The notes under the pieces were generated by a model, which ran no database searches, was not told the origin of the DNA, and was given only the letters and a program-made list of their open reading frames with translations. Of a stretch of DNA of 32,956 nucleotides, positions 4,899 to 30,491 are shown piece by piece. The translations under genes and the position numbers were made by a program. This DNA is from an uncultured Clostridia bacterium (GTDB taxonomy: Bacteria; Bacillota; Clostridia; Oscillospirales; Ruminococcaceae): NCBI GenBank assembly GCA_947631575.1, contig CANRLW010000014.1:1-32956 (forward strand), written 5' to 3'. The stretch's first letter is position 1. Each line of letters begins with the position of its first letter.

Positions 4899-5502
4899 AG
4901 CGGGTACAGCTTTTAGAGGTAAGAGGTCAAAGGCTGTTTGCTAATTATAATGTATAAAAAAGAGGTGAGGGGTTAAACTCTTACCTCTGACTTTTTTCTT
5001 CTAAAAAGCTATTTCTCTAAAACACGTTCTCTCGCCCTATCCCCCTAACCCCCTTCCCCGAAGGGGAAGGGGGAATTGTGCAGGGCGCTGCGCGCCCTGC
5101 ACCCGCCTCGGTGGTTTCGCCACTCCCTTTACTTAAACGCGCGTTTGACTCCAAAAGTGGAGAACGCGCAAATCGGGCGAGTAAGTTGTTTCGGAGTCTA
5201 GAAGGCGCGGGCTGGTTATTGCCTTTCCACTATTACTGCATACTGTACCCTGTAAACTGTCAACTGTCAGCAAGGGGCGTGGGGCGCGCCAGCGCCCCAC
5301 AATTTCCCCCTTCCCCTTTTAGAGGTAAGAAATTAGAAGTAAGAGGTTAGAGTTTTAGATGAGAGGTTATTCGATTTTCGTAAGTGTTCTAGTCTCTAGC
5401 CTCTTTCTCTGAATAACAAATCGCTTTATCTCCAAAACTACCTTTGACTTCTTACCTCTTACCTCTTACCTCTTACATCTTACTTCTTTTTTTATTGAAC
5501 TC
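4899..5502. repeat. Intergenic modular hairpin repeats, gap 1
   Basis: This non-coding gap carries several members of the repeat family. They are a CCCCCTTCCCC / GGGGAAGGGGG hairpin with loop GAA (5049-5073), a GTGCAGGGCGC hairpin with loop TGC (5078-5102), the TACTGCATACTGTACCCTGT block (about 5235-5270), a GTGGGGCGC hairpin with loop GCCA (5279-5300), and repeated TTACCTC/GAGGTAAG tracts (5320-5490). ORFs crossing it are fortuitous. Confidence 0.8.
4961..4997 (+). terminator. Intrinsic terminator of the SUFU-GH5 cluster
   Basis: AGAGGTGAG (4961-4969) pairs with CTTACCTCT (4980-4988) with one G-T wobble. It is followed by GACTTTTTT. The stem is built from the same AGAGGT/ACCTCT text that recurs as a repeat module in other gaps. 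Confidence 0.65.
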
Positions 5503-5531
5503 TTGACTTCCGGGATAAGTTGTTGTATAAT
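5503..5531 (+). promoter_or_regulatory. Strong SigA promoter of the Ter cluster
   Basis: TTGACT (5503-5508) and TATAAT (5526-5531) are separated by exactly 17 nt. The TerY-like gene starts 44 nt later, behind AAAAAGGAG. No clear promoter of this quality is seen again until after the GH3 gene, so it may drive the whole cluster. Confidence 0.85.
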
Positions 5532-5574
5532 TGAATTAAAGATTCGGCGAAAAAATAAAAAGGAGAATAATTCC

Positions 5575-6222
5575 ATGTCAGACTTTTCACGCAGACTTCC
5601 CGTTTATTTGCTGCTGGACTGTTCGGGGTCAATGATGGGCGAGCCCATAGAGGCAGTAAAACAAGGCATAAAGGCGCTCCTTTCGGAACTGAGAGGCGAC
5701 CCCCAGGCGCTAGAAACGGCGTATCTCTCTGTTATCACCTTTGACAGCTCCGCGCGTCAAGTCACGCCGCTTACCGAGCTGTTACAATTTAAAGAACCCG
5801 AAATATCCGCGGGCGGCGCAACGGCGCTCGGCGAAGCGCTGAATGTCCTCATGGACTGCGTAGAAACGGAAATCAGAAAGTCTACGGAAACTCAAAAGGG
5901 CGACTGGCGGCCGCTTGTGTTTATACTGACGGACGGTTCTCCGACAGATACCGAAACTTTCAGAGAGGCAGTCGTAAAAGTGCGGAATATGAAAGCCGCG
6001 AACATTATAGCCTGCGCGGCAGGTTCAAACGCAAATACCACTTATCTTAAACAGATAACCGAAAGCGTTTTGATGATGAATTCACTTTCGGCGGGAGATA
6101 TGGCTCAATTCTTTGCATGGGTGTCGGGTTCTGTCAAAACGTCCTCTAAAAGCCTTGACGCTAAACCCGGCGGCAATATCGAACTTCCGCCGCCTCCCCA
6201 GGGATTTGTGGTTGTTCCCTGA
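5575..6222 (+). CDS. terY: TerY-like von Willebrand A domain protein
   Basis: 215 residues from the ATG at 5575. An upstream in-frame ATG exists at 5503, but it overlaps the promoter -35 and lacks a ribosome site, whereas 5575 follows AAAAAGGAG. The protein is one VWA domain with an intact metal-ion-dependent adhesion site: DCSGS at 15-19, a Thr in GGATALG, and Asp in LTDGSPTD. The C-terminus is a short Pro-rich tail (ELPPPPQGF). This is the TerY type found with PP2C phosphatases and TerD proteins in Ter stress clusters, where it is thought to act as a metal-dependent binding partner in a phosphorylation switch. The PP2C gene starts 28 bases downstream. Confidence 0.85.
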   Translation: MSDFSRRLPVYLLLDCSGSMMGEPIEAVKQGIKALLSELRGDPQALETAYLSVITFDSSARQVTPLTELLQFKEPEISAGGATALGEALNVLMDCVETEIRKSTETQKGDWRPLVFILTDGSPTDTETFREAVVKVRNMKAANIIACAAGSNANTTYLKQITESVLMMNSLSAGDMAQFFAWVSGSVKTSSKSLDAKPGGNIELPPPPQGFVVVP

Positions 6223-6250
6223 AAGCGCTCTGTAATAAGGAGAACGCCTT

Positions 6251-7768
6251 ATGAATGAAATGATTGAGAGCAAGACTAATGATGCCCTCGGAAAAGACGA
6301 ATGTTCCGAGCCGAAATGCTCCGAAACCGAAACAATCGGCGGAACAATGTCGAATAATTCGGATAATACCGAGCAAGAGGAGAACAATATAGAGACGCCG
6401 AAAGTGTCGCTTGAGAAAAAGGGAATTGAAAAAGCTGCTGAAAACGGCGAGCTTGAGAATAACAAGCGTTTAATTGCCGAAACCGAAAATCTCCCCGAAA
6501 GCGAAAACGACCTTGTAAATTCGGAAGATGCGGACTTGAACGAAAGCACCGAAAACGCTCCCGAAAAGATAAAGCCGCTCTCAAATGAAGAAGTGACGGA
6601 GCATACCTCGGCGCTCTGGAAATATAACCCCATTCCCGAAAACGAGCCTGAGCCTTTCCCGGAGTATCTGACGGCGTTTAAGCAATATCCGAAAAGTACC
6701 GTTATCGGCGCGCGCGTCAGAGGAAAAAAGCACAAGCACGAGGGAACAAACTGCGACGACTGGTTTGAAACGGCAAGTTTTGAGGATATAACGTTTGTCG
6801 CGGTGTCCGACGGCGCAGGCTCAAAAAAGTTCTCGCGCATAGGCGCACGGGCGTCATGTAAAGCGGCGGTCGGGTATCTTTTAAATGCATTTGAAGAACT
6901 GTATGCCGAAAACAGCGGGCTTAGGGAAAACCTGAAACTCGGTCTTTCGGACGGGAAATGTATAGAAGTCTGCCGCGTTCTTGCTCAAAAAGTGAGGACT
7001 TCCGTTATAAAGGCATATGAGGCGGTAGAAACCGCGTTCTATATGAGAAAAACCGACAGCGCATATGAAAAGGTCGTGGGCAGGAGCTTAAAGATAAATG
7101 ACTTTTCGGGAACGCTTTTGATAGCCGTTATTATTCCGACGGGCGTTGAGAAAGAAAACCTCGTTATTTCCTGTCAGATAGGCGACGGAGCTATAGCTAT
7201 ACTCGACACAAAGGGCGGGTTTGAAAATTCGCTGAAACTTATGGGCGTACCCGACGGCGGCGATTTTTCGGGAGAAACGGAATTTCTGACTTCCCCGAAA
7301 ACAAGAACGGAAGAATCTCTTAAAAACAGAACGAAGATAGCCGTAACTTCTGCGGATATGCTCTTTGTCATGACGGACGGCGTTGCGGACGATTATTTTC
7401 CGAACGAAACGGAAATGCACAGGCTCTATCTCGACCTTTTAATAAACGGCATACTCGGCGAAAACGAGTTTTCGGAGCTTACGCAGGAGCAAATGAAGAT
7501 GTTTAAGCGCATACCCGATCCGCTTGTTTATCCGTGGGTAAACGACAAGAGCGTAAAAGTTCCCGTTCAGTATACCAAAAGGATAACGGAGGCTCTGGGG
7601 CTTACGCTCGAAGAAATTTTCACGGACAGGACTGCCGCATATCTTGCGGGTCTTGAAATAAAGTACGGCGAGGATCTTTCGCAGGAAGAAAAGCTGAAAA
7701 TATGGCTGGACAATTATGTTGAAAGAGGCTCATTCGACGACAGAACGCTGGTCGTTGTGTCGATCTAA
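6251..7768 (+). CDS. PP2C-family protein phosphatase (TerY-linked)
   Basis: 505 residues. The first ~140 are acidic, low-complexity and probably disordered, rich in Glu, Asn, Ser and Thr. A PP2C domain follows at about 148-505, with the metal-binding Asps in VSDGAG (Asp187), IGDGA (Asp312), MTDGVADDYF (Asp376) and the terminal DDRTLVVVSI, plus the FSGTLLIAV strand. PP2C enzymes remove phosphate from Ser/Thr using Mn or Mg. In published Ter clusters a TerY-type VWA gene, a PP2C gene and a protein kinase form a triad. The kinase is not next door here. The start follows AAGGAG at about 6237-6242. Confidence 0.88.
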   Translation: MNEMIESKTNDALGKDECSEPKCSETETIGGTMSNNSDNTEQEENNIETPKVSLEKKGIEKAAENGELENNKRLIAETENLPESENDLVNSEDADLNESTENAPEKIKPLSNEEVTEHTSALWKYNPIPENEPEPFPEYLTAFKQYPKSTVIGARVRGKKHKHEGTNCDDWFETASFEDITFVAVSDGAGSKKFSRIGARASCKAAVGYLLNAFEELYAENSGLRENLKLGLSDGKCIEVCRVLAQKVRTSVIKAYEAVETAFYMRKTDSAYEKVVGRSLKINDFSGTLLIAVIIPTGVEKENLVISCQIGDGAIAILDTKGGFENSLKLMGVPDGGDFSGETEFLTSPKTRTEESLKNRTKIAVTSADMLFVMTDGVADDYFPNETEMHRLYLDLLINGILGENEFSELTQEQMKMFKRIPDPLVYPWVNDKSVKVPVQYTKRITEALGLTLEEIFTDRTAAYLAGLEIKYGEDLSQEEKLKIWLDNYVERGSFDDRTLVVVSI

Positions 7769-8113
7769 AACTTAATGCTTACAGCGACGGAGCTGTAATA
7801 ATAAACGGACTGTATAACGCATAATGTTTACGATAGGATTGACAGTATACAGTGTAAAGTGTAAAGTGTACAGTAGAAGGTATCCGTTTCGCGGATATTA
7901 TTAGATTGTTATCTAACTTAAAGGTTTTTGAGCAACCATAAAGAAAAGCTCGTGTGCCTATAGATATAAAACAATCTAAATCTTATCCGCCGTAAGGCGG
8001 ATACAATAGCTGTACACAGTACACTGTCCACTGTATACTGATATGAAGTATCGTCAGCCCCTATGCGGACAATACGGTCTGAAATCAAAACAACTTTTAG
8101 GAGGAAAAGCACT
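7769..8113. repeat. Gap with 198-bp inverted repeat inside Ter cluster
   Basis: A small hairpin TTACAGC / GCTGTAA (7779-7798) follows the PP2C stop. The main feature is an inverted repeat at 7843-8040. CAGTATACAGTG (7843-7854) is a perfect inverse of 8029-8040, and similarity continues inward to GTATCCG. AGATTGTT (7903-7910) pairs with AACAATCT (7970-7977), and the TTATCCGCC-GTAA-GGCGGATA hairpin (about 7984-8003) is nested inside. That same hairpin recurs at 13541-13568. No ORF. Confidence 0.75.
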
Positions 8114-8692
8114 ATGGCAGTATGTTTGACAAAAGGACAAAAAGTTGACCTTACAAAGGGAAACCCCGGGCTTAGCAAGATAATGGTAGGTCTGGGCTGG
8201 GATACGAACAAATATGACGGAGGATCGGACTTCGACCTTGACGCGGCGGCGTTTTTGCTCGGCACTAACGGAAAAGTAACAAACGACGGAGATTTCGTTT
8301 TCTACGGGAATTTAAAGCACAGCTCGGGCGCCGTTGAGCATATGGGCGACAACCTCACCGGTGAGGGCGAGGGCGACGATGAGCAGATAATGGTAGACTT
8401 AAAGGCAATTCCCGCAAATATTGAAAGACTGGATTTCACCGTTACCATCTATGACGCGGACGTTCGCAGGCAGAATTTCGGTCAGGTCAGCAACGCCTTT
8501 ATCCGTATAGTTGACGGCGAAACAAACACGGAGCTTATACGCTATGACCTCGGCGAGGACTTTTCAATTGAAACGGCTGTAGTAGTAGGCGAGATCTACC
8601 GTCACAACGGCGAATGGAAATTCAACGCCATAGGCAGCGGTTTCCAGGGCGGTCTTTTCGCACTCTGCAAGAATTTCGGAGTAAATGTTTAA
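8114..8692 (+). CDS. terD: TerD-family calcium-binding stress protein (first copy)
   Basis: 192 residues from the ATG at 8114, which has a perfect AGGAGG at 8099-8104. An in-frame ATG at 8063 lacks such a site. It is a single TerD domain with the conserved [19 protein letters not shown] segment (DFDLD at 39-43), FYGNL, the acidic [13 protein letters not shown] loop (78-90) that binds calcium, and the [10 protein letters not shown] and C-terminal [14 protein letters not shown] signatures. TerD proteins are cytoplasmic and linked to tellurite, phage and general envelope stress. It lies 345 bases after the PP2C gene across a repeat, with a second TerD downstream. Confidence 0.95.
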
Positions 8693-9130
8693 TATTTGAC
8701 GGGTTGGTTGTGTGAAGTTTAATATTGCAGTCTGTATATAAAACCTAATCAGTGTTGTATGGTTATTCACCAAATGTAGACAATGTGTACACTACCAACA
8801 GGGGTGCTGGAACGGAGTCCCGCGAGGCGGGTCGCAGGGCGCGCCAGCGCCCCGCATTCTCCCCCCCTTCCCCTTTTAGAGGTTAGAGTTTTAGAGGAGA
8901 GGTTGTTTGGTTTTAGTAAGCATTCTAGCCTCTTTCGTTAAACTTCAAACAGCCTTATCTTTCAAAAGCTCCCCAATATTCTTACTTCTTACTTCTAATC
9001 TCTTACTTCTAAAAGGGCAGGGGGATGGAGCGAGTGAACGTAAATTAGAAAAACAACGTTTGAAAAGAATCCCAAATAGGTTTTTATATAAGCTGAATAT
9101 TGATATTCCCCCAAAAGGAGGTATAATTAA
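8693..9130. repeat. Intergenic modular repeats, gap between terD genes
   Basis: No gene. Positions 8728-8758 match the left arm of the long hairpin at 298-345 at about 24 of 31 positions. A degenerate CAACAGGGG block at about 8797 is followed by a GGGCGC hairpin with loop GCCA (8837-8852), C-rich text, TTAGAGGTTAGAG tracts, and an AACAACGTTTGAAAAGAAT block (about 9050) that recurs in the 13.8, 14.0 and 30.3 kb gaps. The ribosome site AAAGGAGG of the next gene ends the gap. Confidence 0.75.
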
Positions 9131-9715
9131 ATGAGCGTTAATCTTACTAAAGGACAAAGAGTAAGCCTTGACAAAAACATGACCATGGCTCTTATAGGTC
9201 TGGGCTGGGACACGAACAAATATGACGGAGGAGCGGATTTTGACCTTGACGCCTGTGCTTTTATGCTCGGAGCAAACGGAAAAGTCCGCAAGGATGAAGA
9301 TTTTATCTTCTACGGAAATCTTCAGAGCGAGGACGGCTCTGTTCGTCATACGGGCGATAATCTGACGGGCGAGGGCGAAGGCGACGATGAAGTTCTTATA
9401 ATCGACTTTACAAAGATCCCCGCGGACATTCAGAAAATTGCCATAACCGTTACTATCTATGACGCGATACCCAGACATCAGAATTTCGGGCAGGTGTCTA
9501 ACGCATATGTGCGCGTTGCGCGTATGGCTGACGAAAATGACACGGTAGGCACAGAAGTTCTGAAATTCGACCTCGCGGAAGAATTTTCGATAGAAACGGG
9601 GCTTGTTGTCTGTGAAATTTACAGAAACGGCGCGGACTGGAAATTCAATGCGGTCGGCGCGGGCTATCAGGGCGGTCTTGAGGCATTGTGCAAAAGTTTC
9701 GGCGTAAACGTTTGA
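9131..9715 (+). CDS. terD: TerD-family calcium-binding stress protein (second copy)
   Basis: 194 residues, start after AAAAGGAGG. It has the full TerD pattern: [19 protein letters not shown] (DFDLD at 36-40), [18 protein letters not shown] (75-87), GQVSNAYVRV and WKFNAVGAGYQGGL. It is a diverged paralogue of the gene at 8114, sharing the motifs but differing at many surface positions. Both keep all acidic calcium ligands. Whether it matches TerD, TerE or TerZ of enterobacteria cannot be decided by eye; they are one family. Confidence 0.95.
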   Translation: MSVNLTKGQRVSLDKNMTMALIGLGWDTNKYDGGADFDLDACAFMLGANGKVRKDEDFIFYGNLQSEDGSVRHTGDNLTGEGEGDDEVLIIDFTKIPADIQKIAITVTIYDAIPRHQNFGQVSNAYVRVARMADENDTVGTEVLKFDLAEEFSIETGLVVCEIYRNGADWKFNAVGAGYQGGLEALCKSFGVNV

Positions 9716-9732
9716 GCGTATGAACGTATAAG

Positions 9733-9764
9733 CGGCTTAGTGGCTTAGTGGCTTATCGGCTTAG
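9733..9764. repeat. Four tandem 8-bp repeats
   Basis: Consensus YGGCTTAK is repeated four times without gaps (CGGCTTAG, TGGCTTAG, TGGCTTAT, CGGCTTAG) in the 118-bp gap after the second terD. It lies about 70 nt before the next start. Confidence 0.75.
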
Positions 9765-9833
9765 CTGCTGGATATCGGCGCGGGGGCTTTTGGGTTTCCG
9801 CGCAGTATTCTTTTAAACAAACAGGAGAGGGAT

Positions 9834-11057
9834 ATGCAGACGGTTCGGGATTTATTCGGCGAGGATACGGGCGGGGAGATAATAATTTCTCCGGGCGAAT
9901 ATGCAGGTCCGATCGTCGTTGACAGAGCGTGTACTATAAAAGGGAATATGTCCGTTATATGGGCGGACAGCGGACCTGTGCTTGTCATAAAGGCGGCGGG
10001 AGTAAAGATTGAAAATCTCAGAGTCGAAGTCACGGGAAACGGCGAATTTACGGCGATAACCTCCGAATATCCCGACACAAAGCTTATAAATGTCGAGGTT
10101 CGCGGAAACGTAAAGGGAATACTTGGCGAGGCGGAAAACTGGGAGCTGCCGAACGTAATTTCCCTCGGAGATTTTGCCGCGGAAGAAGAGAACAAGTTCC
10201 GCGTTAAAATAAACGCTGCGGGAAAAGCAACTCTCGAAAGCAGGGCGAAGGCTCTGACGATAACTCCGGGTTCACTTGAAAAAGGAGAAAACTCCGTTCT
10301 TCTGACGGCGGACGCTCTCAAAGACAACACCATTCTTTACGGCGAAATTATGGTACATTCCGCCGTGTCACGGAGAATTTACGTTATGGGAAAAGCCCGC
10401 GCGGGCGCGCAGAAATACGGCATTCTCGAACCCCCGACAATTGAACATAACAAACCCGCCGAAAGCATATCCACAACACCTCGGACAGACGTTCTGCCTA
10501 TTGAGCAAAACACTGAACATAACATAAACGAAAACATAAGGCAGGCGAAAAAGGGTCAGCGTATTCCGATAAGCGAGCTGGGGTCTGCAAATATAAAGAT
10601 AGTCTTTGAGCATAAGAGCACTGACAAGAGCATAGAAATAGACGGATATGCCTTTTTGCTAAGGGAAAACGGAAAGGTCATGAAAGACGAAGACCTTGTA
10701 TTTTTCGGAAATCCCGAAAGCCCCGACAAGTCGGTTAAAACGGGCAGCGAAGAGCCTTTTATTGAAACAGACCTTGAAAAAACAGAGCCTTCTATAGCTA
10801 AGATAGCCGTTTGTTTTTCGGTATACGGCGATACGCAGAAAAACATTTCCTCGGTAAAAGAACCTGCCGTGCGCATTTTCGGCGGCGGGAAAGAGATGTA
10901 CAGGTTTGAGCTTGGCGGTCTGTCCGAAGAAAAAACGTTTGTGGCTGTCGAGCTTTACAGATATAAAGGCGAATGGAAACTTAACTTTGTCGGCGCGGGA
11001 TATAAGAGCGGACTAAAAAAGCTGTGCGAGAGTTACGGCGTAGAAGTAGAAGAATAA
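9834..11057 (+). CDS. Beta-helix / degenerate TerD fusion protein
   Basis: 407 residues, start after AGGAGAGG. Residues about 1-100 have the short repeating beta strands of a right-handed beta-helix (GEIIISPGEYAGPIVVD, then VLVIKAAGVKIENLRVEV and TKLINVEVRG), as in pectate-lyase-like or NosD-like carbohydrate-binding folds. Residues about 110-190 are a beta-rich, Ig-like stretch. A polar linker at about 195-238 precedes a TerD-like domain (240-407) ending WKLNFVGAGYKSGLKKLCESYGV. That domain has lost the calcium site: DFDLDA has become EIDGYA and the acidic GEGEGDDE loop is absent. No signal peptide is seen, so it is probably cytoplasmic like its neighbours. The function is unknown; it may be a calcium-independent partner of the two TerD proteins. 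Confidence 0.8.
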   Translation: MQTVRDLFGEDTGGEIIISPGEYAGPIVVDRACTIKGNMSVIWADSGPVLVIKAAGVKIENLRVEVTGNGEFTAITSEYPDTKLINVEVRGNVKGILGEAENWELPNVISLGDFAAEEENKFRVKINAAGKATLESRAKALTITPGSLEKGENSVLLTADALKDNTILYGEIMVHSAVSRRIYVMGKARAGAQKYGILEPPTIEHNKPAESISTTPRTDVLPIEQNTEHNINENIRQAKKGQRIPISELGSANIKIVFEHKSTDKSIEIDGYAFLLRENGKVMKDEDLVFFGNPESPDKSVKTGSEEPFIETDLEKTEPSIAKIAVCFSVYGDTQKNISSVKEPAVRIFGGGKEMYRFELGGLSEEKTFVAVELYRYKGEWKLNFVGAGYKSGLKKLCESYGVEVEE

Positions 11058-11105
11058 GACTATATATAACTACATATAAAAGTATAATAATATAGGAGCG
11101 GTATA

Positions 11106-12068: not shown

Positions 12069-12078
12069 GGGTGATATT

Positions 12079-13524
12079 ATGAAAAAGATAATGGCGGCGC
12101 TTGTTTTATCTTTGGGCGTTCTGCTTTCGGGCTGTAAAAGCGAGCCGACAATTACCGATAATTATTCGTCGGTATCGTCTTTTACGCAGAGCAGTTCGGA
12201 CAGCTTTAGTTCGTCATATGCCATAAACTCGACAACAGAAAGCACTTCTGAAAGTTCAAGCTCGTCTGTCCGGAGCAGTTCTTTTTCATCATCTTCAAGT
12301 TCATCTTCTAGCTCTTCATCAAGCTCATCTTCAAGTTCAATTTCAAGTTCAAAGTCATCATCTAGCTCATCTTCACATTCATCATCAAGCTCAATTTCAA
12401 GTTCATCTTCAAGTTCATCATCAACAAAAAGCACTCAAACTTCAAGCCAAGCTCCCAAACCGCAAGACCCCGAAACGTATGACGAAAAAGCAGAACGCCT
12501 GCTTTCGGAAATGTCGCTCAGAGAAAAGGTCGGACAGCTTTTCATTGTGCGCCCCGAGGCGCTAGTATCTCCCACAAAAAACCTTTCGGTGGGCTATAAG
12601 AGCGTTACGGCATTGTCCGAGGCAATGAAGAGCAATTTCAAAAAATATCCCGTGGGCGGTGTGGCGCTGTTTGCGGCGAATATTGTTTCTCCAAACCAGA
12701 TAACTTCGTTTAATAAAGCTCTTCTGAATATGTGCGATATACCGCTGTTTATTGCCGTTGACGAAGAAGGCGGCAGAGTAGCGAGGCTCGCAAACAACGA
12801 TAATTTCGGATTGAAAAAATACGAGAGCGCGCAGGCGGTCGGAAAAAGCGGCAACAGCGCGGACGCTCTTGAAATGGGAAACACGATAGGCGGCTATCTG
12901 AAAAAATACGGTTTTAACATGGACTTTGCGCCCGACGCTGACGTTTTTACAAATCCGGAAAATACCGTTATAGGCGACAGGGCGTTTTCAACCGATGCGG
13001 AAATTGCCGCGAAAATGGCGAAGGCAATGGCGCAGGGGCTGAAAAATAACGGCATTATCCCCGTCTACAAGCATTTCCCCGGTCACGGTGACACAAGCGA
13101 GGACAGTCACACGGGCGCGGCTTTTGCAAACAAAACAAAAGAGGAAATGGAAAAATGCGAGTGGCTGCCGTTTATGGGCGCGGGGGAGCTTGACGGCGTT
13201 ATGATAGGGCATATTTCAACGCCTAAAGTAACGGGCGACAACACTCCCGCGACGCTTTCGGAGAAGATGGTTACGGAAATTCTGCGCGGAGAGCTTGGGT
13301 TTAAAGGTCTTGTTATAACGGACGCGCTCGGCATGGGGGCGATAAAGGGAGAAAAGGACTATGCCGTAAGAGCGATACTCGCGGGGTGTGATATACTGCT
13401 TATGCCCGATAATTTATCCGAGGCATTTGAGAGCGTAGTAAACGCCGTAAACAGCGGCGTAATTTCCGAGGAGCGCCTAGATGAAAGCGTTTTGAGAATT
13501 CTAAAATTCAAGGTGCGCTACTAG
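12079..13524 (+). CDS. nagZ: GH3 beta-N-acetylhexosaminidase-type lipoprotein
   Basis: 481 residues. An N-terminal lipoprotein signal (MKKIMAALVLSLGVLLSGC, lipid Cys19) is followed by a Ser-rich linker (about 30-123) with runs of up to ~18 Ser. A GH3 catalytic domain follows (about 133-481). Visible motifs are VGQLFIV, VDEEGGRVARL, KHFPGHGDTSEDSH (331-344; the His344 of the Asp-His dyad is diagnostic of the NagZ type) and ITDALGM with nucleophile Asp415. NagZ enzymes release GlcNAc from muropeptides, and some GH3 relatives act as phosphorylases. The lipid anchor and stalk place it outside the membrane, near peptidoglycan. It follows the aldolase by 10 bases, so it may be co-transcribed with the Ter genes. 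Confidence 0.88.
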   Translation: MKKIMAALVLSLGVLLSGCKSEPTITDNYSSVSSFTQSSSDSFSSSYAINSTTESTSESSSSSVRSSSFSSSSSSSSSSSSSSSSSSISSSKSSSSSSSHSSSSSISSSSSSSSSTKSTQTSSQAPKPQDPETYDEKAERLLSEMSLREKVGQLFIVRPEALVSPTKNLSVGYKSVTALSEAMKSNFKKYPVGGVALFAANIVSPNQITSFNKALLNMCDIPLFIAVDEEGGRVARLANNDNFGLKKYESAQAVGKSGNSADALEMGNTIGGYLKKYGFNMDFAPDADVFTNPENTVIGDRAFSTDAEIAAKMAKAMAQGLKNNGIIPVYKHFPGHGDTSEDSHTGAAFANKTKEEMEKCEWLPFMGAGELDGVMIGHISTPKVTGDNTPATLSEKMVTEILRGELGFKGLVITDALGMGAIKGEKDYAVRAILAGCDILLMPDNLSEAFESVVNAVNSGVISEERLDESVLRILKFKVRY

Positions 13525-13626
13525 AGGTAAGAGTGTTAGCGCGTTATCCGCCGTAAGGCGGATAACGCTGTAAGAGGTAAGAAAGTTAAAGGTGGTTTGG
13601 AAGATAAAGTTTTTTGATTTTCAGAG

Positions 13627-13661: not shown

Positions 13662-14094
13662 GCGTTTATTCAGCGGACTGCCTTTCGGTTATTACTGCAT
13701 ACTGTACCCTGTCTGCTGTCAACTGTCAACAGGGGTCGCGGGGACGAAGTCCCCGCGACTTTCCCCCTTCCCCTTCGGGGAAGGGGGCAGGGGGTTAGGG
13801 CGAGATAACGTTATTTAGAGAGATAATGTTTGAAAAGAACCAAAAATAGGCTTTTGTGCGTTATATTCATCATATAACATTTTGGCTTAAACTCTAGCCC
13901 CTAGCCTCTTCTTTCAATAATTAAAAAACCTTATCTTTCAAAACCTCCTCAAAATTCTTACCTCTTACCTCTTGCATCTAACCTCTAGCAGGTTAGGGCG
14001 AGTAAACATTATAGAGAGAAAACAACGTTTGAAAAAACAACCTTTCCGCTATTACTGCATACTGTACCCTGTCTGCTGTCAACTGTCAACAGGG

Positions 14095-14128
14095 GTCGGC
14101 GTTTTGACAGTGCAAACGCCGACCTTTT
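14095..14128 (+). terminator. Hairpin with T-run in repeat slot
   Basis: GTCGGCGTTT (14095-14104) pairs perfectly with AAACGCCGAC (14114-14123) and is followed by CTTTTT. It occupies the slot where other copies of this repeat carry a GTCGCGGGGAC or GTGGGGCGC hairpin. Confidence 0.6.
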
Positions 14129-14151
14129 TAATGCTGTTAAAGCAGAGCCTT

Positions 14152-14619: not shown

Positions 14620-14685
14620 AAATTACCTCCAATTGAAATTTAGCTGATACGAACACTGATCGTGAAAATTTCACATATCGTTCAC

Positions 14686-18727: not shown

Positions 18728-19112
18728 GCCGAAAGGTTGTCCGCTCATTCATCACTTTTGAATAACCTTAACGAACTTCTTTCCCGCACTAAGGTTTTTT
18801 CACACTTAGAGTTGTTCCCCGCTCAACACCTCTTTTAGGATTGCCTTTTCAAAGCACAGCTTTGAAAAGGCAATGCGGGGAAAACTCTTGTTTTCCCCGC
18901 ACCCCAGATTCAATGCCGCAGGCATTTAATCTGATGCGCTGGCTGACGCGTTGCGGGGGCGCTGCCTCCGCGCCCCTGCCAGAGGGAAAAAATTTTTTGA
19001 AAAAAATTTTTTCCCTCTGGACTCCCTTTTCAAAAAACTTTCGTGTCGCCGCCCGTTTTGTGGTTTTGATTTTAAACGTTGTTCGCCGCTCGTAACAGTT
19101 TCTAGCCTCTAG
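18728..19112 (+). repeat. Composite hairpin element, copy 1
   Basis: A roughly 385-bp non-coding element sits between convergent glmM and the PPTase gene. It runs from GCCGAAAGGTTGTCCG to CTAGCCTC. In order it contains a 16-bp perfect hairpin with loop ACA (18840-18874), a GCGGGGAAAAC hairpin with loop TCTT (18875-18900), a CAGATT/AATGCC hairpin with loop GCA (18905-18933), a GCGGGGGC hairpin (about 18953-18971), and a 42-nt AT-cored palindrome CCAGAGGG...CCCTCTGG (18979-19020). An inverted copy lies at 28402-28757. Confidence 0.85.
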
Positions 19113-22136: not shown

Positions 22137-22140
22137 AGTT

Positions 22141-22686
22141 TTAACTCCTTATATTAAATTCATCTTTTAATATCGCGTATGATGCGAAATCCGAAAAGTC
22201 AGGCTCTCCGAGGCTGTTTTTGCGAAAAGCCGCGCTTTTCTTAAAAACTCCCTCTCTGCGCATACCCGCGCGCTCAAGAAGATCTACAGAGCGCGTGTTT
22301 TTTATATCGACCTCGGCAATTATCCTGCGGACGTTCATCTTTTCAAACGCATAGCGAAACATTCCTTTTACCGATTCGAGCGCATAGCCTTTGCCCCAGT
22401 ATGACCTGTTGAAGGTATATCCTATCTCATAAGCCCCGAAAAAATCCTTGTCCTCGAAAAAGAGCTTTCCGATAAGAAAGTTGTTTTCTTTGAGAACGAC
22501 CGCGAAAAATCGTTTGTCCTGCGCGAGCTTTGCAGCTACGGCGAGAGCCTTTTCCCGCGGGAAAACTCCCGACGGCTCAAAATAACATACCTCAGGGTCG
22601 GTAAGTATCTGCGCAAATTCTTCGCTGTCCGACGGACTGAACCGCCTTATTCCGAGCCGTTCAGTTTCAAATATAAACTGTTCCAT
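22141..22686 (-). CDS. GNAT-family acetyltransferase (RimJ/RimL-like)
   Basis: 181 residues. Typical text of the RimJ/RimL subgroup is seen: ETERLGIRRFSPSDSEEFAQIL at the N-terminus, a YEIGYTFNRSYWGKGYALES motif A/B (about 85-106), and VDIKNTRSVDLLERAGMRREGV near the C-terminus. These enzymes use acetyl-CoA to acetylate N-termini or small amines. The substrate is unknown. It is the first gene of the leftward operon; the GH94 gene begins four bases after its stop. Confidence 0.88.
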   Translation of the reverse strand: MEQFIFETERLGIRRFSPSDSEEFAQILTDPEVCYFEPSGVFPREKALAVAAKLAQDKRFFAVVLKENNFLIGKLFFEDKDFFGAYEIGYTFNRSYWGKGYALESVKGMFRYAFEKMNVRRIIAEVDIKNTRSVDLLERAGMRREGVFKKSAAFRKNSLGEPDFSDFASYAILKDEFNIRS

Positions 22687-22728
22687 TTTTCCTCTCCGAC
22701 TTTTTTATACAGTCTACCTTATAATATA

Positions 22729-22756
22729 ATTATACCTCATTTCCAAAAATAAACAA
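22729..22756 (-). promoter_or_regulatory. Promoter of the GNAT-GH94-PPTase operon
   Basis: On the minus strand TTGTTT (22756-22751) and TATAAT (22734-22729) are spaced 16 nt, about 43 nt before the GNAT start at 22686. Confidence 0.6.
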
Positions 22757-22820
22757 GGGCGGTAATTTATACAAATTATCCTGATAAAAATTGTGCAATA
22801 TGACATCTCGCAAAAAACTA

Positions 22821-22849
22821 TTGTAATTCTCGCCGAATTGTAGTATAAT
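22821..22849 (+). promoter_or_regulatory. Promoter of the purD operon
   Basis: TTGTAA (22821-22826), 17 nt, TATAAT (22844-22849). purD starts at 22885 behind AAAGGA. No purine riboswitch fold was evident in the 36-nt leader. Confidence 0.75.
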
Positions 22850-22884
22850 GTTTATGTAAATTTATTGCGAAAGGAATTATTAAA

Positions 22885-24174: not shown

Positions 24175-25289
24175 ACAAGTACAGATTCTGCGCGCCCTGT
24201 CATTTCGGGCTGGAGAAAACGCTCGAATTTGAGGTAAAAAAGATAGGCGGAGAGGAAATTTCGGTGTCCGACGGGAAAGTATGCTTTTCGGGAACAGCGG
24301 AGACCTGCGCAAAAGCAAACGTTTTCTTCTCCGTGGCGGAGCGCGTTTATATCATACTCGGAGAATTTAAAGCGGCAAATTACGACGACATTTTTTCGGG
24401 AATAGAAAAACTTCCGTTGTCGGAATTTATCGGGAGAAACGACGCTTTTCCGAATAACGGTCATTCGATAAATTCCGCGCTTAAAAGCATTCCCGCAATT
24501 CAAAAGCGCGTAAAGCTGGCGATGGCGAGAAATCTCGGAAAGGCATACGGTCTTGAAAAAATGCCCGAAACGGGAAACGAATGCAAAATTCGCTTTTCCA
24601 TAATGAAAGACATGTTCTCGCTATATCTCGACACAAGCGGCGACGGACTCCACAAGCGCGGCTACCGCGCAATAGGAAATGCCGCGCCGATGAGAGAAAC
24701 GCTTGCGGCGGGGATAGTTGACTTGGCGAGAGTAAGAGAAAGCGACCTCGTGTGCGACCCGTTCTGCGGCTCGGGAACGATACTTATAGAAAGCGCGCTG
24801 AAGGCGCTGAATATTGCGCCGGGGCTAAAGCGGCGCTTTGCGGGGGAGCGACTTATGTTCCTTCCCAAAAGCGCATGGAAAAACGCCCGCGAAGAGGCCC
24901 GATCGCTTATAAAAGAGCGTTCCGATTTCAGGGCTGTCGGTTTCGACAACGACCCCGAGTGTGTAAAGCTGACGCTTGAAAATGCACAAAAAGCGGGAGT
25001 ATCGAATTTTATTTCGGCAAAAGTTCGCGATATAAAGGACTTTTCCCGCTCGGAAATTCCCATGAAAATAATCACAAACCCGCCCTATGGCGAGAGGCTC
25101 TTGGATATAGAGCAGGCTCGCAACATATACAGAATAATGGGCGAAAAACTTCTTCCTCTCGGAAACAATCAACTTTATGTTATCACTTCCGACGAGGAGT
25201 TTGAAAAGCTGTTCGGAAAAAAGTCCGACAAAGACCGAAAGCTGTATAACGGAATGATTAAAGCACGACTGTATTCTTATTATAAGTAA
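24171..25289 (+). CDS. THUMP-domain RNA guanine-N2 methyltransferase (YpsC/RlmL-like)
   Basis: 372 residues. The N-terminus (RFCAPCHFGLEKTLEFEVKKIG) and residues about 45-155 form the ferredoxin-like/THUMP RNA-binding region. The methyltransferase domain has the SAM loop DPFCGSGT (196-203) and the N-methylation motif NPPYGERL (from Asn303). This layout matches YpsC, the Firmicutes counterpart of the N-terminal half of E. coli RlmL, which methylates 23S rRNA G2445. It overlaps purD by four bases and is followed after one base by the transglutaminase gene. Confidence 0.92.
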   Translation: MNKYRFCAPCHFGLEKTLEFEVKKIGGEEISVSDGKVCFSGTAETCAKANVFFSVAERVYIILGEFKAANYDDIFSGIEKLPLSEFIGRNDAFPNNGHSINSALKSIPAIQKRVKLAMARNLGKAYGLEKMPETGNECKIRFSIMKDMFSLYLDTSGDGLHKRGYRAIGNAAPMRETLAAGIVDLARVRESDLVCDPFCGSGTILIESALKALNIAPGLKRRFAGERLMFLPKSAWKNAREEARSLIKERSDFRAVGFDNDPECVKLTLENAQKAGVSNFISAKVRDIKDFSRSEIPMKIITNPPYGERLLDIEQARNIYRIMGEKLLPLGNNQLYVITSDEEFEKLFGKKSDKDRKLYNGMIKARLYSYYK

Positions 25290-25290
25290 T

Positions 25291-27444
25291 ATGAAAAATC
25301 ACTCTACCCCCGCATACCAGGGCGCGGAGCTGTTTTCCGCTCTGGTATTTATCTGCGCAATGAGCGCGGCGCTTATGTATACGATATGCAACAGCGTTGT
25401 CTTTCAGACAACGTGTATAATGACTGCGCTCACTTTCGGAATTTATATGATTTTTTACGCGCTGAGAAAGAAAAAAGCGTATGCGTTTTTTGCGTTTCTG
25501 GCGTGTTTTTTTGTTGTCACTATAATCTTTTCGGTGTTTATACGGCTAAGCCGCGTAAGCCCTGTTGATTTTCTTTTCAGGGCATCGGAATATTACGACG
25601 CGACTATGGCGGCGGCGTTTATCCCTCTTTTCTCGTTTATAATCGGATTTCCGACGGCATATTTCAGCGTTTATATTCCGCGCCCGGCGTTTTTGCTGTT
25701 GCCTGCGTTTATTCCGCTTTTGCTTTCGGCAAAGACTTCAAACGGACTTCCCGCGGGATATGTGGTATTTATGGCGGTAGGATATGCGCTGGTCATACTG
25801 GGCGTTTCGCGTCCCGAATTTCCGAAAGAGAACGTTTATTTTGACGATAAGAAGTCACGGTTTGAGCGTCTGGGCGCTCTGGGAATTTTCGGACTGGTGA
25901 TAGCCGCGGTCATTTACTGCGTTCCGAGAAGTACAGAAACGCCGCTTGGCGATTATCTCGACAACGCGTTTAAAGTCCGCTCGACGTTCTTTGCCGGAAA
26001 CGGTCTTTCAAACTTTACCAACACAAGCAGCGTAAACCACGGCTCAAATGTTCTGTCCGAAAACGTTTTGTTCTATGCGTCTGCGGATAAGCCGATGATA
26101 GTGAGCCGCTGGTTTTTCGACGAATATAATGACGACGGGCACTGGACGGCTCATAAGGATTATACAACGGGCTGGACAAACTGGAGGACATATAAACAAA
26201 ACTTAAACACCGCCGTTCTTTCCTCAAAGCTGCGCGTGGCAGCGGACGTCGGCAAGCTTTCGGAATATGCCGAGCTGCTGAAAACCCTGCCGAAGATCCC
26301 CGAAGAAAACTATTACAATACAAGACTTATGAGGATATACATAGCCGACAAAAGCAACACCCGCGTTGTGATCCACCCGAATATGACCGTAGACGTAAGC
26401 ATTCGCGGCTATGACGACAAAATATATCGGACGCTTATGGACGAGATGTTCACCGACAAAAATTTCGGACAAAACGCGTCCTATACGCTCAGTTATTACG
26501 ACCAGACGCCGAACAAGGCGCTTATTTACCTTTTTGAACAAGTCGACATGGAAGAACTTCTTTCTGCGGCGGAAGAAGAAGGCGTTATCTCCGAAACGGA
26601 AAAAGAGGCGTTTATAAACGAGCGGAATCAAGCGGCGGAATATCGCGAGAAAATTCTTGAAGAGCCCATAAGCCCGAGAATAACAGCGCTTGCAGATGAG
26701 ATAACAGACGGGCTTTCTTCGGACTATGAAAAGGCGCTCGCTATTGAAAAATGGTTTGGCGAGGCAAGATTTGTATACGACCTCGATTTTATTCCGAGGG
26801 AAACGACCGCAGAATATTTCCTCTTTGAGAGCAGGCGCGGCATTTGCACGGACTTTGCCTCGGCGGCGGCTCTGCTTATGAGGGCGGCGGATATCCCGAC
26901 AAGATACGGCGAAGGGTTTGTGCTTGACGCAGATAATTTCAATGAATACGGATATTATGCGGTAAAAGCTGCCGACGCCCATGCATTTGCAATGGGATAT
27001 ATAGAGGGCTATGGGTGGCTCGAAATTGACGGAACAAAATATGCCATAGTAGCAGGCGAGGAAGAAGACAACTCCATAATTCCGTTTATTCTGCTTATTA
27101 TTGCGATAATTCTCGGAACGTTGGCTTTTATTTTCAGAGAAAGGCTGGCGGAAGTTATATTTGCCGTGGGCGTTTGTTTCAGGAGCGACAGAGGAAAAAT
27201 ACGCGCGGTTTATCTGAGGACAAGAAAGCTTGCCTGCAAAATTGCAGATAAAGAACCGAAGAGCACGACTTCCGAAGAAGTGCGCGGCATAATCTCAAAT
27301 TCGCTTATGCTCGGCGCAGAGGCTGAAGAAATAACCTCCTGCGCGGACGCGCTTTTCTATAACGATACCGTAGACCCGCGCGCGGGCAAGCTGTATGCAA
27401 ACTATAGGAAGATCCTGAAAATGAAACGAAAAATGAGGAAGTGA
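25291..27444 (+). CDS. Membrane transglutaminase-like protein (TgpA type)
   Basis: 717 residues. The first ~215 residues hold about six membrane helices. A long extracytoplasmic part follows, ending in a transglutaminase-core domain with Cys519 (GICTDF), His564 (DAHAFAMGY) and Asp580 (WLEID), so the catalytic triad is complete. A further helix lies at about 594-614 (FILLIIAIILGTLAFIF), before a cytoplasmic helical tail. Related TgpA-type proteins usually sit with DUF58 and MoxR ATPase genes. DUF58 follows here after four bases, but MoxR is absent. It starts one base after the methyltransferase stop with no clear ribosome site, so coupling is likely. Confidence 0.88.
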   Translation: MKNHSTPAYQGAELFSALVFICAMSAALMYTICNSVVFQTTCIMTALTFGIYMIFYALRKKKAYAFFAFLACFFVVTIIFSVFIRLSRVSPVDFLFRASEYYDATMAAAFIPLFSFIIGFPTAYFSVYIPRPAFLLLPAFIPLLLSAKTSNGLPAGYVVFMAVGYALVILGVSRPEFPKENVYFDDKKSRFERLGALGIFGLVIAAVIYCVPRSTETPLGDYLDNAFKVRSTFFAGNGLSNFTNTSSVNHGSNVLSENVLFYASADKPMIVSRWFFDEYNDDGHWTAHKDYTTGWTNWRTYKQNLNTAVLSSKLRVAADVGKLSEYAELLKTLPKIPEENYYNTRLMRIYIADKSNTRVVIHPNMTVDVSIRGYDDKIYRTLMDEMFTDKNFGQNASYTLSYYDQTPNKALIYLFEQVDMEELLSAAEEEGVISETEKEAFINERNQAAEYREKILEEPISPRITALADEITDGLSSDYEKALAIEKWFGEARFVYDLDFIPRETTAEYFLFESRRGICTDFASAAALLMRAADIPTRYGEGFVLDADNFNEYGYYAVKAADAHAFAMGYIEGYGWLEIDGTKYAIVAGEEEDNSIIPFILLIIAIILGTLAFIFRERLAEVIFAVGVCFRSDRGKIRAVYLRTRKLACKIADKEPKSTTSEEVRGIISNSLMLGAEAEEITSCADALFYNDTVDPRAGKLYANYRKILKMKRKMRK

Positions 27445-27448
27445 GAAA

Positions 27449-28399
27449 ATGACGCACATCGGGAGCTATATTCAGATATTATTGCTTAGCGCGGTATTTC
27501 TCATTTTCATAAGCGGGGATATCGGTTGGGCGCTTATTTACACGGCGGGAGCGATAATTGTCATATCGGCGGCGCTGCTGTTGTTATCGAAAAAACATTT
27601 TTCCGTAAAGCTCGGTGAGCTTTCAGGAACGGCGAATGTCGGCGAAAAAGTCGAGTTTGAAATAATGCTCAAGAAAACGGGTTTCTGCGTTCTGCCGTAT
27701 ATCGAAATATGCGTTGAAACGGGGAGCAGCATAAGACTAAGAACGTCGCTTGTGTTCAGAAATTCCGCTGTTGTAAAGGGGAGCTTTCGAGTAAACCACA
27801 GCGGGCTTAACAGGATAAAGCTGACGAATGTTACTGTTCGCGACTTTGCGGGACTTTTACAGCTTGATATACCATGCGCCGAGGAAACGCAAAAGGGCGT
27901 ATTGCCGAAGAATGTCGATTATATCGGACCGGAGGTATTTCCGAGCGTTCTGCCCGACGACAGCGGAGATACCGAGGAAGGAACGAGCGTTCTGAGAGGC
28001 GGACTTCCGGGGTATGAACACAGGGAGTATGTCGCGGGAGATCCATTAAGGAGAATTGATTATAAGCTGTCGGCGAAGAAAGATAAGCTGATGATAAGGC
28101 TTGATGAAAGCACGGGGTATTCTTCGACGAACCTTTATATAGAAAAGAACGGACTACCCGGGTGCTGTGACAATGCGTTTGCGCTTGCGGGAAAGCTGGT
28201 AATGCACGGAGGAACGGTCAAAATAACGCATAAAGACGACAGTTTTACGGCGGCAACGCCCGAAACGCTCGTAAAAATGCGGGAGTGGCTGGCGTTCAGA
28301 GAGTTTGCCGCAGACAGTGAAACAGAGTATTCGTTGCCCGAAGATACGAATGTTATTTTTTCGGGGAACGGAGAAGTCAGCGTCAGGATTAAGTACTGA
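27449..28399 (+). CDS. DUF58-domain protein
   Basis: 316 residues with two hydrophobic N-terminal segments (about 7-25 and 27-46). The DUF58 hallmark is HREYVAGDPLRRIDYKLSAKK (about 191-211). DUF58 proteins are partners of MoxR-type AAA ATPases and transglutaminase-like membrane proteins, and are suspected to act in envelope processes. The gene is four bases after the transglutaminase gene and is the last of the purD-led string. The composite hairpin element begins two bases after its stop. Confidence 0.88.
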   Translation: MTHIGSYIQILLLSAVFLIFISGDIGWALIYTAGAIIVISAALLLLSKKHFSVKLGELSGTANVGEKVEFEIMLKKTGFCVLPYIEICVETGSSIRLRTSLVFRNSAVVKGSFRVNHSGLNRIKLTNVTVRDFAGLLQLDIPCAEETQKGVLPKNVDYIGPEVFPSVLPDDSGDTEEGTSVLRGGLPGYEHREYVAGDPLRRIDYKLSAKKDKLMIRLDESTGYSSTNLYIEKNGLPGCCDNAFALAGKLVMHGGTVKITHKDDSFTAATPETLVKMREWLAFREFAADSETEYSLPEDTNVIFSGNGEVSVRIKY

Positions 28400-28401
28400 T
28401 A

Positions 28402-28757
28402 GAGGTTAGAAACTGTTTTGAGCGGCGAACAACGTTTAAAATCAAAACCACCTACGGGCGGCGTCACGAAAGTTTTTTGAAAAGGGAGTCCAGAGGGAAA
28501 AAATTTTTTTCAAAAAATTTTTTCCCTCTGGCAGGGGTGCGGGGGCAGCGCCCCCGCAATCGATTCTTAGCGCTAAAGGGTGCGGGGAAAACAAGAGTTT
28601 TCCCCGCATTGCCGTTTTAAAAACCGTGTTTTTAAAACGGCAATCCTAAAAGAGGTTTTGAGCGTGAAACCGCCTCAGAATTGCACTTACCTTAAAGCGG
28701 GAAAGAAGTTCGTTTAGTTTTTCAACAGTTATAAATGAACGGACAACCTTTCGGCTG
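28402..28757 (-). repeat. Composite hairpin element, copy 2 (inverted)
   Basis: This is the reverse complement of the element at 18728-19112, about 9.3 kb away, again between convergent genes (DUF58 and the carboxypeptidase). Conserved blocks are the 42-nt palindrome (28490-28531), the GCGGGGGC hairpin with loop AGC (28539-28557) and the GCGGGGAAAAC hairpin (28582-28607). The first slot holds a different 17-bp perfect hairpin (28608-28644), and the third slot holds a TTAGCGCTAA palindrome (28567-28576) in place of the longer hairpin of copy 1. A TACTGTACACTG-type block (28758-28800) then abuts the carboxypeptidase stop. Confidence 0.85.
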
Positions 28758-28807
28758 TTACTGAATACTGTACACTGACGCTGTACCCTGTACACAGTCG
28801 AGCTCTA

Positions 28808-29959
28808 TTACATTGAAATAATCTCGCTCAATATTAGCCCCAGACATCGCCCGAAGTCCATTCTCGGTATATCCTCGTTTGCTATGATGTCGGAGCGGAA
28901 AACTGCCGCGCCGTCGAGCGTCACAAGATATTCTCCCAGAAACTGCCCTTTTTCAACGGGAGCCTCGACCTGCTCTACAAACGTGTATTCATATTCGACT
29001 TTGCTTGCGCTGCCTTTTCGGATCACACATTCAACGCCCTGCTGTTCAATTATGGGAACTATCTCCGCTTTTGAGCCGCGCACGACCTTTATAGGCAGAA
29101 GTTTTGAAGTGTCCTGTTCGGGGGTAAATTTCTGATAGTTGTCAAAGCCGTAGTCCAAAAGCTCCTCGCACCTGTCAAAGCGCTCCTCGTCACTGTCGCA
29201 ACCGAGCGCAACCGCTATATACCGCATGTCCTTTCTGTCGGCGCATACAGTAAGACAATATCCCGCGTTATCCGTTGTTCCCGTTTTTCCGCCGACAATA
29301 CCGTTATAATACCTTACGAGCTTGTTTGTGTTTACAAGCTGGGTTTCTCCTCCGCGCAGATAGTCCAGCCATATCAGCCAGTAGCTCCTCAAAACCTCGC
29401 AGTTCATAAGCTCGGCGGTTAATATTGCAATATCCCGCGCAGTCGAATAATGTCCGCTTTCGTCATATCCCACACAGTTTGTATACCGGGTGTTTTTAAG
29501 CCCCAGCTCTTTCGCTCTTTCGTTCATCATTTTCACAAACGCCGCTTCGCTCCCCGCGATATGCTCCGCAAGCGCTATGCATGCGTCATTTGCCGAGCTT
29601 ACAACGACCGCCTCTATAAGCTCCGCCGCGGACATTTCCTCTCCCGCCCTCAGCCAGATTACAGAGCCGTCTGCGTCGGAGGCGTTTACAGAGGCTTTTA
29701 CTTTTTCATCGAGCGACATTTCTCCTCTGTTTATCGATTCTGCCACCAGCAAAAGCGTCATTGTCTTGGTTATGGACGCCATAGGAAGTTTTTTGTCGGG
29801 GTTTTTTGAATAGATGACCTGCCCCGTGTTAGCCTCGAAAAGTATTTCGGATTCCGCGCCGCCGCTTGTTTCGGCATAAGCCGTGCCGCGCGGGATAACG
29901 GTCATGATCATCATAAATGCACAAAGTAAAAAACAAGTCGTTCTTTTTATCTTTTTCAT
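28808..29959 (-). CDS. dacF: D-alanyl-D-alanine carboxypeptidase (PBP5/DacF type)
   Basis: 383 residues from the ATG at 29959, which follows AGAGGTG. An in-frame ATG at 30010 would put extra residues before the signal peptide and is rejected. A Sec signal peptide ends at about GTAYA (29). Active-site motifs are SITK (Ser62, Lys65), SAN (122-124) and KTGT (225-228). A beta-rich C-terminal domain follows, as in PBP5. The enzyme trims the terminal D-Ala from peptidoglycan stem peptides outside the membrane. The last ~20 residues (CLGLILSEIISM) are amphipathic and could anchor the protein. It appears monocistronic; I see no clear -35/-10 pair. Confidence 0.92.
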   Translation of the reverse strand: MKKIKRTTCFLLCAFMMIMTVIPRGTAYAETSGGAESEILFEANTGQVIYSKNPDKKLPMASITKTMTLLLVAESINRGEMSLDEKVKASVNASDADGSVIWLRAGEEMSAAELIEAVVVSSANDACIALAEHIAGSEAAFVKMMNERAKELGLKNTRYTNCVGYDESGHYSTARDIAILTAELMNCEVLRSYWLIWLDYLRGGETQLVNTNKLVRYYNGIVGGKTGTTDNAGYCLTVCADRKDMRYIAVALGCDSDEERFDRCEELLDYGFDNYQKFTPEQDTSKLLPIKVVRGSKAEIVPIIEQQGVECVIRKGSASKVEYEYTFVEQVEAPVEKGQFLGEYLVTLDGAAVFRSDIIANEDIPRMDFGRCLGLILSEIISM

Positions 29960-30491
29960 ATCGCACCTCTTTATAATAAGTATTACAAAATTATTCCCCA
30001 AAAAAATCATCAGCTTGTATAAAAAACCATTTGTTGTTTATTTCAAACGTTATTTGTCTAAATGACGTTATCTCGCCCTGTTGGCAGTTGACAGGAAACA
30101 GGGTACAGTATGCAGTAACAACCAAAAAGCAATTACTTGCCCACGCCCTCACAAGCCCCCAACCAACTCACCCGCCCGATTTGTGCGTTCTCCCTTTTGG
30201 CGTTAAACGCGCTTTCCCTAAAGAACTAACCTCTAGAAGAGCGGGTCGCGGGGACGCAGTCCCCGCGACTTTCCCCTTTCCCCTTCGGGGAAGGGGGCAG
30301 GGGGATAGGGCGAGTGAGCGTTATTTAAAGAAAATAGCGTTTGAAAAGAATAGCCTTTCCGCTATTACTGCATACTGTACCCTGTACCTTGTCAACTGAC
30401 TACAGGGTTAGTTAAGGTTATTGACAGAAATAACGTTCTGAAAAATATTTCCCAAAAATAATTATATACCTTGTCTTAATAATTATACCTC
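29960..30491. repeat. Intergenic modular hairpin repeats, divergent gap
   Basis: No gene. The carboxypeptidase 5' region is followed by TTTCAAACGTTATTTGTC, an inverted TACTGCATACTG-type block (30077-30119), then a GTCGCGGGGAC hairpin with loop GCA (30245-30269), a C-rich hairpin with one mismatch (30272-30298), a GGCGAGTGAGCGTTATTTAAAG block, and a forward TACTGCATACTG block (30364-30400). ORFs that cross this tract are chance. Confidence 0.85.

Follow-up and report, generated by a model that had tools for sequence, protein, structure and literature searches.

A modular repeat in the intergenic regions

The window analysed here is a stretch of 32,956 nucleotides from an uncultured Clostridia bacterium (contig CANRLW010000014.1 of assembly GCA_947631575.1, C14 in our numbering) and is part of a metagenome-assembled genome (MAG) of 1.88 Mb in 88 contigs that is 97.8% complete. 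Intergenic gaps at 4.9-5.5, 8.7-9.1, 13.5-14.15 and 30.0-30.5 kb contain a modular repeat built from five kinds of block, namely a degenerate heptamer array A (TACTGCA TACTGTA CCCTGTA ...CAACAGG), a slot B that holds a hairpin, a poly-C hairpin C (CCCCCTTCCCC-TTC-GGGGAAGGGGG, followed by CAGGGGGATAGGG), a block D (CGAGTGAGCGTTATTTAGAGAAATAACGTTTGAAAAG) and a second heptamer array E (TTACCTC/AGAGGTA), which in several copies sits in the loop of C. An earlier reading of the letters alone (the sequence-only reading) had proposed that the blocks follow each other in a fixed order, with a different perfect stem in the slot each time. All the stems that it quoted are present where it had placed them, and the modular structure and the turnover of the slot are real; the order, on the other hand, is looser than proposed.

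The complete order A-B-C-D is found in the window at 13.7 kb only, where an A array (13692-13732), a B hairpin GTCGCGGGGAC with the loop GAA (13735-13759), the C hairpin (13763-13787) and a D block GGGCGAG...TTTGAAAAG (13797-13839) lie on the plus strand. The same gap harbors a hairpin GCGTTATCCGCC-GTAA-GGCGGATAACGC within an E array (13541-13568) and a second A array (14052-14092), both on the plus strand, the latter followed by a hairpin at 14095-14123 that has neither C nor D behind it. At 5.2 kb, an A array (5233-5275), a B hairpin GTGGGGCGC with the loop GCCA (5279-5300) and the left half of C keep the order on the plus strand, but the E array comes next (5304-5495 including C) and there is no D. 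A reversed copy in this gap has D at 4996-5040, C at 5042-5075 and a B hairpin GTGCAGGGCGC with the loop TGC at 5078-5102, all on the minus strand. In the element at 30.0-30.5 kb, the left inverted end CAGCTTGTATAAAAA (30011-30025, plus strand) is followed by reversed D and A blocks (30029-30125, minus strand); further on, a B hairpin GTCGCGGGGAC, this time with the loop GCA (30245-30269, plus strand), is preceded by CTAGAAGAGCGG and not by A, and it is followed by C, D and A and by a D block that has decayed (30272-30437, plus strand).

The gap at 8.7-9.1 kb holds a complete element resembling a miniature inverted-repeat transposable element (MITE) on the plus strand (8728-9095), which runs from the left end CAGTCTGTATATAAAACC through a B hairpin, an E array and a D block to the right end GGTTTTTATATAAGCTG and is framed by a duplicated target, AATATTG, at 8721-8727 and 9096-9102. 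Its slot is preceded only by the tail of A, CTACCAACAGGGG, and the hairpin (core GGGCGC-GCCA-GCGCCC, 8837-8852, plus strand) is a hybrid, in that six base pairs are formed and the next pair, A8836 x C8853, is a mismatch. Two TerD-domain genes (8063-8692 and 9131-9715) flank this element.

Distribution of the repeat

The close relatives of the window MAG are Clostridia MAGs from rabbit ('Lapin'), of which G004, G006 and G009 were compared. Identity in aligned DNA is 87-91% between the window genome and these relatives and 89-92% among the relatives themselves. A full A-B-C-D copy has long matches in 4 of 37 genomes of the same genus (the window genome counted), short partial matches of 32-50 nt in the A block in four further ones, and no match in 24 genomes from other families of the same order. 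A single 167-bp copy finds at least 16-26 matches in each of the four close species, and blastn of one 301-bp copy against the window genome returned 104 pieces, a figure that includes the query itself and palindrome matches on both strands. The exact pattern of block A, TTACTGMATACTGTACMCTGT, matched 62 stretches in the GTDB genome collection, all of them in four 'Lapin' uncultured Clostridia MAGs, in a search from which the window's own records were possibly excluded. Spread by a phage or plasmid was considered and rejected, as the exact pattern had no match in viral contigs and no repeat match was found in plasmids or phages.

The counts below come from the four carrier genomes (G000, G004, G006 and G009). 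Pooled DNA amounts to about 2.0 Mb (window genome 471 kb, G009 650 kb, G006 583 kb, G004 317 kb); the pooled stretches overlap in a few places, and copies were counted once, by context.

Hairpins in the slot

In the pooled DNA, 167 C-like matches were found, and removal of 44 reverse-oriented ones left 123 oriented copies of B and C. A perfect stem lies upstream of C in most of these, with at least 8 bp in 91 copies, 6-7 bp in 18 and less than 6 bp in 14, and shuffled upstream segments, drawn from all 167 copies including the 44 later removed, have a perfect stem of at least 8 bp in only 16 of 1670 cases. Unpaired or mutated slots, which would speak against the sequence-only reading, do occur to some extent: 14 copies lack a perfect 6-bp stem, and there are several mismatched hybrids. 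Furthermore, 89 of the 98 stems of at least 7 bp share three inner cores (GGGCGC in 63, GGGGAC in 16, GGGGGC in 10). The stems are indeed swapped, but instead of being new in each copy they are taken from a small number of families.

The covariation that had been suggested as a check is also present. Among 76 hairpins with the GGGCGC core, the outer positions 1-4 are paired in 227 of 304 cases, as compared to a mean of 192 and a maximum of 214 in 2000 shuffles, though mostly on account of one stem position (see below). In ten of the 76, the bases at position 1 are A-C or G-T, and the two arms come from different stem types; the hairpin at 8837 in the window is of this kind.

Comparison of orthologous loci

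The 68 copies of B and C that lie in syntenic intervals of the pooled DNA allow 72 comparisons, which are not mutually independent. The copy was not found (no oriented C match in the interval) in 45, was different (any change in the stem string) in 26, ten of these being inverted, and was identical in one. A few intervals pair non-orthologous copies (L041/L071, L031/L088); their alignments were not used, while the intervals themselves are still part of the 72.

The loci of the window illustrate this. At 4.9-5.5 kb the element is present in all four species, and the hairpin after A differs between the window genome, G009 and G004. G006 carries a fourth hairpin, in a reversed copy, and the stem in G004 is of the same type as that in the second, reversed copy of the window genome. 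The element at 8.7 kb is found in the window genome alone among the four; the gap measures 69 bp in G009 and 68 bp in G006, and G004 has another insertion. The 30.2 kb element, including its B hairpin, likewise has no match in the three relatives. At 13.7 kb, G006 has no B and C between A and D, and a different B begins in G004, where the contig ends. The hairpin at 13541-13568 is absent in G006 and G004, and its counterpart in G009 has A-T in place of G-C in the stem and the reversed loop TTAC. B and C are also present or absent beside shared blocks at G009_L057:1873 and G004_C11:36530 as compared to the window genome. It is uncommon for close relatives to share a hairpin at a given site, and gain, loss and exchange are fast.

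Inverted ends and target duplications

Many copies lie as cargo within MITE-like elements whose inverted ends have the consensus CAG[A/C]CTGTATAWAAA. The end motif CAGACTGTATAWAAA occurs 63 times in the window genome at up to one mismatch, and its reversed control not once. In 43 of 161 cases in the pooled DNA, TTTTTATACAAGC comes after the D block; it is the reverse complement of an inverted end that whole elements have at their opposite side. When insertions of 60-900 bp were compared with empty sites, 62 groups of clean insertions were obtained, which include elements with these ends; at C11:36290 in G004, for example, a site that is empty elsewhere and has a duplicated target (ATTATTCA/ATGATTCA) is occupied by 380 bp.

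Both ends could be assigned to 66 elements in the pooled DNA, 41 of them shorter than 170 bp and 25 of at least 170 bp. Among the latter, 19 hold at least one of the blocks A-E, and the remaining six hold M and/or h hairpins only. Inverted-ended elements fill sites that close relatives have empty, and their contents are combinations of A, E, B, C and D. Direct repeats of at least 7 bp flank 7 of the 66 elements, with 0.3 expected from shuffles, and the target duplications span 7-9 bp in this subset; these counts rest on the paired-end elements, an automatic finder run on the insertion groups having been discarded for its many spurious picks. At four sites in G006 (G006_C3:135252, G006_L067:5005, G006_C4:24373, G006_C2:27488) the flanks are complementary over 9-12 bp, as if the element had been inserted into an existing hairpin loop. 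A further MITE, palindromic and of 105 bp, with the ends CAGACTGCATATAAA, lies at 301-405 in the window and has similar flanks in G009 and G006.

A probable mobile mosaic family and its alternatives

Taken together, the gaps are probably occupied by non-autonomous, MITE-like mobile elements of one family, made of nested palindromic modules, in which slot hairpins are exchanged and template switching may play some part. The stems in the slot would differ from copy to copy through exchange or replacement of the hairpin as one unit among copies with A, C and D in common, be it by ectopic recombination, by gene conversion or by independent insertion into the same arrays. Template switching, as the loops suggest, may flip the loop, occasionally write a stem (as perhaps at 14095) and help the arms to stay matched.

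Several points weigh against this view. We infer the exchange of slots from its products. On inspection of the list, five of the 26 pairs scored as different have one stem type and differ in small changes only. The 27 comparisons in which both copies are present stem from about 11 loci, nine of them from the locus at 4.9-5.5 kb. As many as 59 of the 66 paired-end elements have no flanking direct repeat of 7 bp, and the inverted end follows only the minority of D blocks given above. The bulk of the covariation signal comes from position 1 (paired in 63 of the 76 hairpins; shuffle mean 39.2, maximum 51), since position 2 with 69 pairs equals the shuffle maximum of 69, position 3 with 59 stays just below its maximum of 60, and positions 4 (36 versus 34.4) and 5 (26 versus 28.6) give no signal.

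A partner enzyme was not found either. Between 22 pairs of ends that lie 0.7-6 kb apart (none in the window genome's DNA; 17 intervals after merging), within the part of each carrier genome that was covered, there are 39 open reading frames (ORFs) of at least 120 aa, and the 30 of these that were scanned against Pfam include no transposase, only host-type or unnamed genes. Y1, IS1595, DDE_Tnp_1 and mutator transposases have no match in the four carriers, and of integrase cores (rve) there is one fragment at a contig end of the window genome and one gene in G004. Multicopy insertion sequence (IS) elements are frequently lost from MAGs, and the absence of a transposase from the carriers is for this reason not decisive; the mobilising enzyme may have been lost or may lie in DNA that was not assembled.

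Of the alternatives to such a mobile mosaic, one would regard the palindromes themselves as mobile, self-renewing units that are pasted into heptamer arrays and hairpin loops and owe their perfection to template copying, with no classical transposase and with the arrays as landing strips. Inverted flanks complementary over at least 9 bp occur at 5 of the 66 elements, as compared to 0.16 expected; among the five, however, one is simply an A/T palindrome, and two have longer direct repeats further out. We consider this idea unlikely.

It is quite unlikely that the slot stems were written mainly by template switching at replication, the palindrome-generating process proposed in the sequence-only reading. 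A possible case of it is the hairpin at 14095-14123. A segment of 24 nt at 14093-14116 (plus strand), which comprises its left arm and loop, is present in the window genome and missing in all three relatives, and 18 nt of it match the local sequence of the relatives in reverse-complemented form with 2-3 differences. When the segment itself is reverse-complemented, it aligns over 19 columns across the insertion point to the uninterrupted ACTGTCAA..CGCCGACC of the relatives, with a score that is reached by 0, 0 and 1 of 20,000 whole shuffles in the three comparisons. This control is too lenient, because the two arms of a hairpin correspond to each other in any case; when the stem is left as it is and only the loop is shuffled, 158 (G006), 610 (G004) and 645 (G009) of 20,000 equal the score, which corresponds to p values of about 0.01-0.03. 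Furthermore, CGCCGACC and a T run are retained in the relatives, possibly as what is left of a terminator with one arm lost, and of the four genomes the window genome has diverged slightly more than the others. Outside the carriers, the neighbouring gene was found in only two of 38 genomes searched (G034 and G008). On the corresponding side of this gene, these have E-like arrays and, in G034, a terminator; both the A array and the junction are absent, such that the two genomes leave the change at 14093 unpolarised. In view of the fixed-stem control and the possibly half-lost terminator, an inverted copy of adjacent DNA at 14093-14116 is only suggested, and decay of an old terminator is an alternative.

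Elsewhere, inverted copies are few. At p<=0.01, 7 rows among 147 insertions of 10-120 nt qualify, where about 1.5 would be expected; they contain one event twice, and some reflect only array or hairpin similarity. Direct copies at the same threshold account for 26 of the 147. Loops occur in both orientations, with the flipped one in the minority (GAA/TTC 9:3, GCA/TGC 23:2, GGCA/TGCC 7:1, TTAC/GTAA 15:3), and homogenised arms and inverted spacers are published marks of template switching (PMC8604942; PMC8794818). However, GCCA/TGGC loops are never flipped (26:0), and a palindrome pasted in the opposite direction would also flip the loop alone. As compared to the template-switch mutations described there, by which hairpins are created and maintained, the events here would share the inverted local copy, the matching of arms and the inversion of loops, but they concern dispersed repeats, occur beside mobility and are only suggested. 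Template switching is not the general source of the stems, given that the slots use three recurring hairpin families and that most of the change consists in gain, loss and exchange of whole modules and MITE-like elements.

That the stems belong to structured RNAs or terminators under selection, with compensatory changes preserving what a transcript requires, is very unlikely, even though most of them are paired (91 of 123 perfectly), their pairing covaries, and 18 of the 25 copies between tandem genes are oriented along these genes. No Rfam model reaches its gathering score in the window, whole elements are missing from syntenic sites, and mismatched hybrid stems persist. On the 14 large contigs, 45 of 49 copies of B and C could be placed relative to genes called by a simple ORF rule: 25 lie between tandem, 11 between divergent and 8 between convergent genes and one lies inside an ORF, which matches the background of gap bases (57/24/19% tandem/divergent/convergent). 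Their placement lends no support to a role as terminators or to a conserved regulatory role at single loci, and this second proposal of the sequence-only reading is not supported for the family as a whole. The hairpin at 14095-14123 alone may be a terminator, given the CTTTTT behind it and its position between convergent genes.

A family of repetitive extragenic palindromic (REP) sequences or of the mosaics that they form (BIMEs), moved by a Y1 (RAYT) transposase, is highly improbable. The G+C-rich palindromes are short and numerous and occur in both orientations as well as in composites, which would fit such a family, but PF01797 is absent from the four carriers (versus 8 of 38 genomes of the genus searched), and a REP/RAYT origin is in this respect contradicted. 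Inverted ends with target duplications are not known as features of REP sequences. A retroelement or diversity-generating retroelement, and with it a reverse transcriptase whose presence would track the repeats, was rejected as well (RVT_1 in none of the four carriers, but in 3 of 6 other genomes of the genus searched).

Relation to known repeats and implications

Our literature searches found no description of this repeat family. Arrays of intergenic heptamers are known from cyanobacteria as STRR repeats, although a search for these returned no paper. The TAACTGA repeats of Beggiatoaceae (PMC4679880) likewise form arrays between genes, their 7-nt units containing ACTG-like words, whereas the heptamers here are degenerate and lie within mobile hairpin mosaics. 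The RUP, Correia/NEMIS and ERIC MITEs (PMC10969869, PMC2229807) are likewise short, non-coding and intergenic, with inverted ends and target duplications; the family described here differs by its nested mosaic of modules, by the exchange of the slot and by the fact that no partner transposase was found. The double-hairpin elements of fungal mitochondrial DNA (cited in PMC5910586) have also been suggested to be mobile, but the present hairpins reside on a bacterial chromosome, with B and C often inside an inverted-ended element. The closest likeness is to the BOX elements of Streptococcus pneumoniae (PMC3049150), which have variable internal modules, inverted ends, target duplications and more than 100 copies, insert into one another and are nearly confined to close relatives. 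In the present family, heptamer arrays and several G+C-rich hairpins that can replace one another serve as modules, and the likeness is one of description. We regard the repeats as a new mosaic family of MITE-like nested palindromes that moves fast and is found in a few Clostridia of the rabbit gut, with the pneumococcal BOX elements as the nearest in kind.

Covariation in a stem is usually taken to prove that an RNA is under selection. In the present case, covarying and swapped stems lie in DNA that is lacking at the same loci in close relatives, such that the RNA signal can be mimicked by mobility, by exchange and perhaps by template copying. The four close species offer a natural test of how hairpins originate, flip and spread, and similar mosaics may go unannotated in other gut MAGs.

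Other repeats and genes nearby

The window contains two inverted copies (18728-19111 and 28400-28755) of another abundant multi-hairpin repeat of about 380 bp, which has many matches in the relatives. They bound a segment of 9.3 kb, both tested ends of which have the opposite orientation in G006, a result expected from recombination between the flanking repeats. A segment of about 550 bp at 22173-22722, with an ORF that by eye resembles an acetyltransferase and with the motif TAGACTGTATAAAAA at its edge, is present in the window genome and lacking at the corresponding place in G009. Within a gene for a glycosyl hydrolase of family 3, a stretch of 12-base repeats at 12277-12444 appears by eye to be serine-rich. 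Finally, distant members of the genus (L123 and L111, from G033 and G024) carry simpler nested inverted repeats, in which opposed heptamer arrays surround a terminator-like hairpin; the arms of the nested repeat in L123 are TTAGATTGT/ACAATCTAA.

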